Shown here: in pieces, positions 11,647 through 51,643 of the stretch
Layout: each line of letters begins with the position of its first letter
Numbering within the stretch: position 1 is the first letter of the stretch
Assembly (NCBI RefSeq): GCF_003595195.1
Contig: NZ_CP032418.1
Coordinates: 1,686,501 to 1,750,500, forward strand
Length of the DNA stretch: 64,000 nucleotides
Direction: 5' to 3'
DNA from: Paenisporosarcina cavernae
GTDB taxonomy: Bacteria > Bacillota > Bacilli > Bacillales_A > Planococcaceae
Notes under the pieces: generated by a model
Databases searched by the model: none
Seen by the model: the letters and a program-made list of their open reading frames with translations, nothing else
What the model was told of the DNA's origin: nothing
Program-made: the position numbers and the translations under genes

Positions 11647-12828
11647 TTGAAAGTATTTGAAGAGAACTTGAACCGAAGAAACACGCAATCGGTTAAATGG
11701 GATGCCATGGAACACATTTTTGACGTACCCGATGCATCGGAAATACTGCCAATGTGGGTTGCAGATATGGATTTCCCTGTTCCCGAAGCAGTTACTAAAG
11801 CATTGCAAGACCGATTGCAACATCCTATTTACGGCTATACATTTACGAGCGACTCTGCAAAAAAAGCTTTAGTAGACTGGTTGGAATCCAATCATCAGTG
11901 GAATATTTCACAAGACGAGATTTTATTCCACCACGGCGTCATCCCTGCAATGTCGGTTATCATTCAATCCTTTACAAAGGTGTCCGATAATATTCTAATT
12001 TTACCGCCAGTGTATCCCCCTTTTAAAATGATACCGGAAAAATTAGGTCGGAATGTCATCGAATCTACATTACGTGAGCAAAATGGCAACTACGAAATTA
12101 ATTGGCACGATTTTGAAGAAAAACTAAAACAAGACGTCAAACTCTACATACACTGTCACCCTCACAACCCAGTCGGGAAAGTATGGACAGAACAAGAGTT
12201 ACGCAAAATCGTGGAGTTATGTGAAAAATATAATGTTCGCATCTTATCTGATGAGATACACGCCGATCTAGTGCTGTTTGGAAATAAACATCTTCCATTA
12301 GCAAAAATCGCACCATCCTATAAAGAATTTATATACACATGTGTCGCGCCAACGAAAACTTTTAATCTAGCGGGAATTCAAATTGCAAGTATGATTGTGG
12401 CAAATGAAAAAGATCGTGAAACGTTAAAAGACGTTTCACTCTCCCACGGATTTATTGAAGTGAATGCATTTGCAGGTGTTGCGCTTGAGGCCGCTTATTC
12501 GACTGGTAAAGAATGGCTAGAAGAAGCGAAAAAAGTAATTGAATCCAATATCGAATACGTCATTCAAACATTGCCAAATGAAATTAATGGATTAGAAATT
12601 GCTCGACCACAAGGCACTTACTTACTTTGGATCGACTACCGAAAAACAGGATTGGAAGAACAAGACATCATAAACGCCTTACTTCAAGAAGGAAAAGTAG
12701 CATTAGAAGCGGGATCAAAATACGGAGAAGAAGGAAAAGGATTCCTTCGAATGAACGTCGCAACATCGCCGTCATTGCTAAAAGATGGCGTCGCTCGCAC
12801 CATTAAAGCATTCAAACACTTACAATAA
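11647..12828 (+). CDS. patB: MalY/PatB-type cystathionine beta-lyase / aminotransferase
   Basis: A 393-residue fold-type I PLP enzyme. It carries the MWVADMDFPVP signature of the MalY/PatB group near the N-terminus, HCHPHNPVG, SDEIHADLV with the PLP-ring Asp, and the Schiff-base lysine in APTKTFNLAG (about K237). The group cleaves cystathionine or cysteine C-S bonds, so it acts in sulfur amino acid metabolism. I prefer TTG at 11647, because AAAGGG lies 8 bases upstream; GTG at 11638 overlaps that site. It ends at a terminator. Confidence 0.9.
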   Translation: MKVFEENLNRRNTQSVKWDAMEHIFDVPDASEILPMWVADMDFPVPEAVTKALQDRLQHPIYGYTFTSDSAKKALVDWLESNHQWNISQDEILFHHGVIPAMSVIIQSFTKVSDNILILPPVYPPFKMIPEKLGRNVIESTLREQNGNYEINWHDFEEKLKQDVKLYIHCHPHNPVGKVWTEQELRKIVELCEKYNVRILSDEIHADLVLFGNKHLPLAKIAPSYKEFIYTCVAPTKTFNLAGIQIASMIVANEKDRETLKDVSLSHGFIEVNAFAGVALEAAYSTGKEWLEEAKKVIESNIEYVIQTLPNEINGLEIARPQGTYLLWIDYRKTGLEEQDIINALLQEGKVALEAGSKYGEEGKGFLRMNVATSPSLLKDGVARTIKAFKHLQ

Positions 12829-12856
12829 CTCTTCCCTTGGGAGGGTTATTTTTTAT
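12824..12856 (+). terminator. Terminator after patB
   Basis: AATAACTCTTCCC pairs with GGGAGGGTTATT around a two-base loop region and is followed by T-rich sequence. Confidence 0.85.
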
Positions 12857-12963: not shown

Positions 12964-13215
12964 GATTGGGAAACTCTGCGTCTACATTAGGAAACTTTCT
13001 TCAAACATTGGGACACTCTGCGTCATCATTAGGACACTCTGCGTCATCATTAGGACACTCTCTTCAAACATTAGGACACTTTCCTCAAACATTAGGACAC
13101 TCTGCGTCATCATTAGGACACTCTCTCAAAACATTAGGACACTCTGCGTCATCATTAGGACACTTTCTCGCAACATTATGACACATTCCTCAAACATTGG
13201 AACACTCTTTCAACA
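12964..13215 (+). repeat. 21-bp tandem repeat array, left copy (12 units)
   Basis: Twelve head-to-tail units of exactly 21 bp. An almost invariant core CATTAGGACACT (first 12 bases) is followed by a variable 9-base half of a few recurring types (ctgcgtcat, cttcaaa and tcctcaaa types). The outer units are most degenerate (for example gattgggaaac at the left end). The unit has no stop in several frames, so open frames across it look like heptapeptide repeats, but no ribosome-binding site precedes them. A second array with the same unit and orientation lies beyond the NERD gene. Confidence 0.93.
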
Positions 13216-13286
13216 AAAGTAGATATCTTCGTCGTCACTTTGGTTCGTCAGTAATTCATTCTCCATTAACAAATGCTTGATAAATA

Positions 13287-14255
13287 TTAATTTTTTGCAG
13301 GAGATCTTTTATTTAAATACAATGTATTTCGTCCACGACCTTGTATTTGCAAACCAGATTGTTGAAGTTTTCGATACGTGACTTTCGCGCTTTCGATCTT
13401 TAAAAATGTTCTGCATTCTTTGTTGCTCATCTCATTTTTCATCAATAAGAAATAATCATTTACTGCTTGCATAAAAGAGGATGGATTTTCATTGCCACAT
13501 GTACACATAAATTTGAATCCAATTTTTGAAACAGTTAATTTTTTACAGACATCGCACCACATTCCAGGAAGCAGTTCTTTTACATCGACATCAAAATTTT
13601 TCAAAAAATTATGTTGGTCGAACTCCATATGTTCGTTTAAAATACTTTTTTTCAATTTAGCTAATGTATTTTCATCAATGAATTCCGTTGAACGCGGAAG
13701 CTCCAAAATCTTCTTTTGAAGAAAACTTGCTCTTACAATCGTCGGCTCTTCCTGCTTAGTCACAATTTTACAATTAACATTCGATACAGCAAAAATTCCG
13801 AAAACAGGTAGGTCAATTCCTTTATTTAAAAGCCACCCTCTCATCCACTCGCAATTTTTCTCTAGTTGCTGCAGAGGTGAATCCATAACCTTCGAGTTGC
13901 CAAGTTCATCATATTGAATTAACTGATCTGGGTTACGAGTAATTTCAATCTGGAATTTTAAATTTTTCGATTCAATTATTAACGCGTAATGTTTAGTAAG
14001 AATTAGATGATCAATTTGAAAGAAGGAATACGATTTTAGAAGGATGTCATGGAAGAGATTGATCGGAAAATCCGGAGTAAATCGAGCTAAATTCATGGCG
14101 ACACTTTCTTCGCCCCATTCTCCTGCTTCTAGCTGAGCGAGTTTTGTTTGAACGAGTTTGTATGATTTGTGGGTAGGAGGAAGACGCCTTGCTAGTGCTT
14201 CCAATTTTAAAAAATAATTATTTTTTGATCGAGTTTTCTGAATCAGAATTATCAC
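13287..14255 (-). CDS. NERD-domain protein with C-terminal zinc-ribbon-like segment
   Basis: A 322-residue protein with a nuclease-related (NERD) domain at about 40-160. Family-type residues are visible: GEWGEE (45-50), D82 in FQIDHLIL, E95 and K97 in IIESKNL, and Q129. A C-terminal CxxC pair (WCDVCKK) and CTCG around 240-265 look like a zinc ribbon. NERD proteins are thought to be related to restriction-type nucleases; their cell role is unknown. The GTG start almost touches the AAGGAG site, so initiation is uncertain. Both sides carry the same 21-bp array. No neighbouring gene is cotranscribed with it. Confidence 0.85.
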   Translation of the reverse strand: MIILIQKTRSKNNYFLKLEALARRLPPTHKSYKLVQTKLAQLEAGEWGEESVAMNLARFTPDFPINLFHDILLKSYSFFQIDHLILTKHYALIIESKNLKFQIEITRNPDQLIQYDELGNSKVMDSPLQQLEKNCEWMRGWLLNKGIDLPVFGIFAVSNVNCKIVTKQEEPTIVRASFLQKKILELPRSTEFIDENTLAKLKKSILNEHMEFDQHNFLKNFDVDVKELLPGMWCDVCKKLTVSKIGFKFMCTCGNENPSSFMQAVNDYFLLMKNEMSNKECRTFLKIESAKVTYRKLQQSGLQIQGRGRNTLYLNKRSPAKN

Positions 14256-14403
14256 TCCTTTTTATTCAAATTACCTCAAACTTTCAATTATTGCTATAGC
14301 TAAGTGAATTATTTTTTTAATTTTCAGATATTAACTTCTTAGGATAACCTTTTAACCTGTGATACGCCTAGTAAAATCTCTGAAAAAAAATTTAACACTT
14401 GGA

Positions 14404-14708
14404 CATTTGGACACTTTGCGGCAACATTAGGACACTTTCTCCAAACATTAGGACACTTTCTTCAAACATTAGGACACTCTCTCAAAACATTAGGACACTT
14501 TCTCCAAACATTAGGACACTTTCTCCAAACATTAGGACACTTTCCTCAAACATTAGGACACTTTTCCGCAACATTAGGACACTTTTCCGCAACATTAGGA
14601 CACTTTTCCGCAACATTAGGACACTTTCTCCAAACATTAGGACACTTTCTCCAAACATTAGGACACTTTCTCCAAACATTAGGACACTTTCCTCAAACAT
14701 TAGGACAA
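14404..14708 (+). repeat. 21-bp tandem repeat array, right copy (14 full units plus 11 bases)
   Basis: The unit and direction are the same as in the array at 12964, with variable halves mainly of ttctccaaa, tttccgcaa and tcctcaaa type. Adjacent units are often identical (three tttccgcaa units in a row, then three ttctccaaa), which suggests expansion by slippage or unequal exchange. The two arrays lie about 1.2 kb apart as direct repeats around the NERD gene. Confidence 0.93.
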
Positions 14709-14802
14709 TTACCCCGATTCCGCTTTTATGCCTGCCACCATCTTCTTTCCCAACCTCTTAAGCGGTGAATTTTCGCGCACGAAAATCATTTTTTTCAACC
14801 AC

Positions 14803-14830
14803 AAAAAAGACAACCCGTGAAGGTTGCCTT
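14803..14830 (-). terminator. Terminator after the 70-residue membrane protein
   Basis: GGCAACC pairs with GGTTGTC (one G-U) around six bases on the minus strand, followed by six T. Confidence 0.75.
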
Positions 14831-51535: not shown

Positions 51536-51607
51536 CTCATATTAACTTCACTTTAAAAGTTTGTTATGTCTAATGAAAATTTTGTTATGTCTAATGAAAA
51601 TTTTGTT

Positions 51608-51643
51608 AAAACCCGGCATCGATTTTGAATCGTCCGGGTTTTA
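51608..51643 (+). terminator. Terminator closing the protease cluster
   Basis: AAACCCGG and CCGGGTTT form the outer stem with an inner CGATTTTGAATCG hairpin, followed by T-rich sequence. A 21-bp direct repeat (ttttgttatgtctaatg type, two copies plus part) lies just before it (51557-51610). Confidence 0.85.

Follow-up and report, generated by a model that had tools for sequence, protein, structure and literature searches.

What could account for two like-oriented arrays of tandem direct repeats that flank a single gene? The question is raised by a NERD-domain gene located in a 64,000-nucleotide stretch of the Paenisporosarcina cavernae chromosome (hereafter the window; Table 1), where both arrays sit between the terminators of an aminotransferase gene and of a small ORF adjoining ppiB. 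The initial annotation had described twelve and fourteen exact 21-bp units, alike in orientation, around this gene. The exact spacing and the shared orientation held, while the right array proved to comprise 15 units and not all of the cores were perfect (a perfect core is present in 13 of the 15 units on the right, and several units on the left have one or two core mismatches). In the window as a whole, the core was matched 28 times (with at most two mismatches) as against 4.5 expected, a count that none of 100 shuffles reached, and a chance origin of the twin arrays is excluded. At window positions 51555-51608 there is also a tandem repeat of 21 bp (AAAATTTTGTTATGTCTAATG), short at 2.6 copies, that falls outside the assigned NERD classes.

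Table 1. Features of the NERD locus (window coordinates) and the NERD loci of the genome (positions in Mb).
Feature	Position	Strand	Description
Terminator-like hairpin of aminotransferase gene	12824..12850	+	Left border of the putatively inserted segment
Array-NERD-array segment	12860..14796	.	Missing from all 8 congeners; ends approximate
Array 3' (downstream) of NERD gene	12964..13206	+	12 units, 21-bp period, core CATTRGGACACT read on +
NERD gene	13287..14255	-	About 321 aa, GTG start uncertain; NERD domain (Pfam), Cys4 zinc ribbon and helix-rich C-terminal domain
C-terminal domain	13290..13490	-	Predicted helix-helix-helix-strand-strand; the correlation between protein and repeat core lies mostly here
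Cys4 zinc-ribbon-like segment (CxxC...CxC)	13497..13556	-	Four invariant Cys (14 homologues); weak zinc-ribbon Pfam matches in homologues
NERD domain	13791..14123	-	PD-(D/E)xK-like residues intact (GE..., QID, ESK, Q); Pfam and 14-homologue alignment
Array 5' (upstream) of NERD gene	14404..14709	+	15 units, 21-bp period, core CATTRGGACACT, orientation as in downstream array
Terminator-like hairpin of small gene	14807..14830	-	Right border of the putatively inserted segment
Own NERD locus	1.70 Mb		Core CATTRGGACACT
Own NERD locus	0.69 Mb		Core CTATGGGAAA
Own NERD locus	0.24 Mb		Core TTGCATGTTTT
Own NERD locus	2.44 Mb		Core TTCTATCGTGCAA
Own NERD locus (L157)	0.65 Mb		Core TGCGTAAGATAAC-like; not called by the detector but visible by eye
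Own NERD locus	0.57 Mb		Core GAATCGCACA; weaker array, 580 bp away

The repeats appear to be conserved as DNA and not as protein, as had been proposed at the outset. In the arrays found beside other NERD genes, steps of 19, 20 and 21 bp are mixed (212 of 843 single steps differ from 21), so that no reading frame can be held, and no frame is open across all 24 arrays of this core in the genome of origin. A coding (heptapeptide) repeat was ruled out on these two grounds.

Within the 2.54-Mb genome (one contig) the CATTRGGACACT core forms 24 arrays at 22 sites, all of them intergenic, that together hold 329 units and in which nearly all steps are exactly 21 bp. The description of the unit as a near-invariant 12-base core with nine variable bases was borne out, as the information content is 1.4-1.9 bits at most positions of the core (0.95 at position 5, A/G) against 0.1-0.4 bits in the middle of the spacer; from array to array the core is nearly invariant and the 9-bp spacer largely array-specific. 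Only two of the arrays touch the NERD gene of this class, the other 20 sites being gene-less, and thus this genome alone argues against a link to NERD. A genome-wide scatter with no such link is what the initial annotation had named as fatal to its proposal, and the 22 sites seemed to be a case of it until NERD loci were compared generally (see below), which reversed the verdict. The paired CATTRGGACACT core pattern was absent from 100 related genomes, in 40 of which a search for NERD proteins gave a best match of only 32% identity. A relaxed GGACAC pattern recovered 21-bp repeats with other spacers in 16 of 261 family genomes (this genome included), and further array classes were present in the stretches around them. 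Of these 16 genomes, at least one (G158) owes its match to plasmid repeats of an iteron-like kind. The sole result of the genome-contig scan was a 21-bp array in Fischerella; the cyanobacterial 21-bp array on a Fischerella muscicola contig (AGTGTCCTAACGACAGAACTT; L081, 2551-2583 and around) also contains the GGACACT heptamer.

NERD homologues were gathered by protein similarity alone and their flanks were then examined for arrays, a locus being counted as positive when a 19-22-bp array lay within 1 kb of the gene; the controls were 201 genes from 20 stretches in nine of the same genomes, positioned regardless of arrays. Arrays were present at 45 of 65 NERD loci in a first batch and at 75 of 88 in a second, which amounts (without the window gene) to 119/152 NERD loci versus 7/201 control genes (Fisher p = 2e-53, uncorrected for relatedness; as the NERD loci are phylogenetically non-independent, the p-values overstate the association). 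Shuffled flanks yielded arrays in 0 of 301 cases. The share of sequence covered by arrays fell from 20% at up to 250 bp from the NERD ORF to 0.4% at more than 1 kb (control, 0.17%) and, with the period left free between 10 and 60 bp, a peak at 20-22 or 40-42 was found in 137 of the 144 flanks that had a periodic signal. Nine Bacilli families outside the window's own had arrays at 21 of 31 NERD loci (four, from family f8, were already in the first batch). An array remained uncalled at 33 of the 152 loci, and the detector missed at least one locus of the own genome (L157) in spite of visible repeats. The link that had been suspected between arrays and NERD genes is strongly supported by these comparisons, and the association is almost certainly specific to NERD genes.

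The arrays in the flanks of NERD homologues (19-22 bp) have many different cores, each lineage with its own, and in this genome each of the six NERD genes has a different core nearby (Table 1). At loci with arrays on both sides the two cores matched in 40 of 42 cases, in 39 of which the orientation matched as well, and the orientation of the arrays relative to the NERD gene was conserved among homologues. A dispersed array of the TGCGTAAGATAAC class had already been noticed in L086 when the NERD locus of that class (L157) was retrieved, and the TTCTATC and TTGCATG classes likewise have dispersed copies. Cores were shared by 3% of NERD pairs with less than 25% protein identity, by 79% at 60-80% and by 96% above 80%; vertical inheritance alone would likewise keep arrays alike between close homologues. 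The partial correlation of the core with the C-terminus, given the N-terminus, was 0.18 (0 of 500 permutations) and that with the N-terminus, given the C-terminus, 0.07, which suggests that the repeat core is tied to the C-terminal domain more closely than to the nuclease domain, by a modest difference.

The window protein matches the NERD domain (PF08378; Grynberg and Godzik 2004, as cited in PMC12567373) with E = 7e-15 (55.9 bits vs a gathering cut-off of 22.1), and NERD alone was found above the Pfam cut-off in this protein and its homologues. In an alignment of 14 homologues the residues G47, E48, D81, E94, K96, C233, C236, C250 and C252 are invariant. The C-terminal domain (about 65 aa) gave no match in Pfam, and single-sequence structure models were poor (pLDDT 38 and 48); from the predicted order of three helices and two strands it could, with low confidence, be a winged HTH. 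Carriage of the window NERD by plasmids or phages was rejected, its protein having no relatives in the plasmid, phage and viral collections.

In all eight congeners (8/8) the aminotransferase gene adjoins the small ORF and ppiB across a gap of 0.1-0.7 kb that contains neither NERD nor array, and thus the array-NERD-array unit was most simply inserted in this genome. The divergent intergenic regions of the eight congeners permitted neither a target-site duplication nor an exact insertion point to be derived. The suggestion that the array pair could excise the gene fits with the absence of the unit from the same site in every congener, while no excision was observed. Dispersed arrays in two further genomes (G272 and G273) had a similarity of 75-88% across some 110-130 bp and ended in a common 3' tail, a likeness that points to the copying of defined units and suggests that these arrays arose in this manner. 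At a solo-array site compared between the two, the empty site is not clean, because the tail persists in the array-less copy. In one region of G273 (C1:1853872-1897420), TATCGGACA arrays occur about every 2 kb among ordinary-looking chromosomal genes and are often doubled at ~250 bp. Different array classes were also observed, in two genera, by what is apparently the same ribose-binding-protein gene (L134, 9568-10078; L135, 8826-9272), so that arrays may have colonised certain intergenic sites more than once.

We read this ensemble (with a probability of roughly 60%) as a two-part system, made up of a single-copy gene for a nuclease with NERD, zinc-ribbon and C-terminal domains and of cognate direct-repeat arrays of ~21 bp, some of which are gene-less. 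Its C-terminal domain would bind the core, and the 21-bp phasing (two turns of DNA) would place several protein molecules along the same side of the helix; the nuclease domain might then nick or cut at the arrays or at array-like targets, and repair or replication would alter the number of units and copy arrays into further intergenic sites, occasionally along with the gene. The NERD gene would remain single-copy while its arrays multiply, as RAYT transposases do relative to REP sequences. The NERD protein very probably recognises its own core; that its activity drives the spread or maintenance of the arrays is slightly favoured, and the spread could also be passive (recombination, slippage). 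The odds are about even that NERD-C-terminal-domain nucleases and helically phased arrays form a separate and widespread class of enzyme-plus-repeat elements in Bacilli, with the C-terminal domain reading the core and the nuclease copying the arrays.

The main rival to the two-part system is a defence or regulatory role, where an accessory NERD nuclease would attack foreign DNA and would not move arrays, the latter serving as operators, genomic decoys or self-marking sites. NERD domains are indeed found in defence proteins (the homologues give weak PglW and MAD6 matches), the genes are accessory and variable, and each side of the gene has arrays close by. Nevertheless, we consider such a role rather unlikely: the window protein fits no PADLOC model, no defence genes were noted in the immediate neighbourhood of the window NERD, and a defence function by itself leaves unexplained both the 20 gene-less array sites of one genome and the copies that share a tail. 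Direct arrays of the same core on both sides, in a unit that the congeners lack, are also what would be left by a passive cassette, in which ordinary homologous recombination moves or deletes the gene and NERD is a passenger; however, gene-specific cores, a fixed orientation and a core divergence that follows the C-terminus are unexpected for a passenger, and control genes are seldom near arrays (7/201), which makes the cassette quite improbable.

The two-turn phasing would also suit oriented binding sites of a factor that acts on the nucleoid or in replication, NERD being the factor, and AGTGTCC is placed on the leading strand (as judged from the dnaA position and GC skew) at 16 of the 22 own sites. 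This bias is weak and may reflect gene orientation, a strict replication-strand polarity was rejected on the same count, and the system is accessory, often present as several classes per genome and missing from the same site in congeners; hence, a role in chromosome organisation is regarded as very improbable. The scarcely credible alternative, already disfavoured, is that of neutral minisatellites that favour variable intergenic sites, with which the wholly intergenic location of the own arrays and the ordinary-looking character of the sampled genes around the G272 and G273 arrays would agree, but not the steep fall in array coverage with distance from NERD and its low value in controls, the conserved core beside free spacers or the single preferred period.

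With the two-part system, the poorly understood NERD domain would gain a partner in the cell, and the 21-bp intergenic minisatellites of many Bacilli, otherwise unexplained, would gain an origin. Should the protein recognise its own core, dozens of protein-DNA pairs provided by nature would be at hand for learning a DNA-recognition code, and it would become directly testable whether the RAYT/REP arrangement has been arrived at a second time, independently.

Among known repeats, plasmid-origin iterons resemble the NERD arrays as direct repeats that measure roughly two turns of the helix and adjoin a gene, but the latter occupy 22 chromosomal sites, and their many core classes go with NERD genes. 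The iteron-like character first proposed finds no support in the strict sense (an origin beside a Rep gene), as no Rep initiator was found near the 22 sites, dnaA is far off at 43-44 kb and the neighbours of the window arrays are the aminotransferase gene, the small ORF and ppiB. Apparently true iterons, distinct from the NERD arrays, were seen in G158 (L070, 1501-1640), where GGACACACTTTCGGGTTTAAA repeats of 21-22 bp lie by an apparent plasmid Rep initiator gene. A CRISPR array was discarded as a candidate, given that the spacers measure 9 bp and recur within arrays and that no cas gene was present among the neighbours tested. The TAACTGA direct repeats of Beggiatoaceae and cyanobacteria, which the accessible part of their description presents as dispersed, intergenic and proposed sites of a post-transcriptional regulator (PMC4679880), are similar in being dispersed intergenic direct repeats of obscure role; in contrast, they consist of one heptamer sequence across phyla and, in that part of the source, have no described NERD partner.

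The open-access literature (subscription literature was outside the search) contained no paper that connects NERD genes with repeats, whether flanking or dispersed, and on that basis we read the gene-plus-cognate-repeat system as undescribed so far. Its closest likeness in working appears to be the RAYT (REP-associated tyrosine transposase)/REP-REPIN system, in which a single-copy gene stands beside its own repeat class, gene-less repeats are dispersed in intergenic regions, and gene and repeat co-evolve (PMC3116915, PMC8266576). The NERD gene, too, lies beside its own repeat class, gene-less copies of which are dispersed while the gene itself is unamplified, and gene and repeat again co-evolve. 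The differences are that a NERD (PD-(D/E)xK-like) domain with a zinc ribbon takes the place of the Y1 HUH transposase, and that the repeats, arranged in direct arrays of 21-bp period, are not palindromic; a REP-like hairpin structure was rejected, as the arrays had no hairpin excess over shuffles (folding z-scores of -0.15 to 1.2). Thus, the NERD-array arrangement can be regarded, by analogy, as RAYT/REPIN-like in its working though without those defining features of RAYT that were tested (Y1 HUH partner, palindromes), and it gives indirect hints of an enzyme-mediated dissemination of repeats as in RAYT/REPIN.
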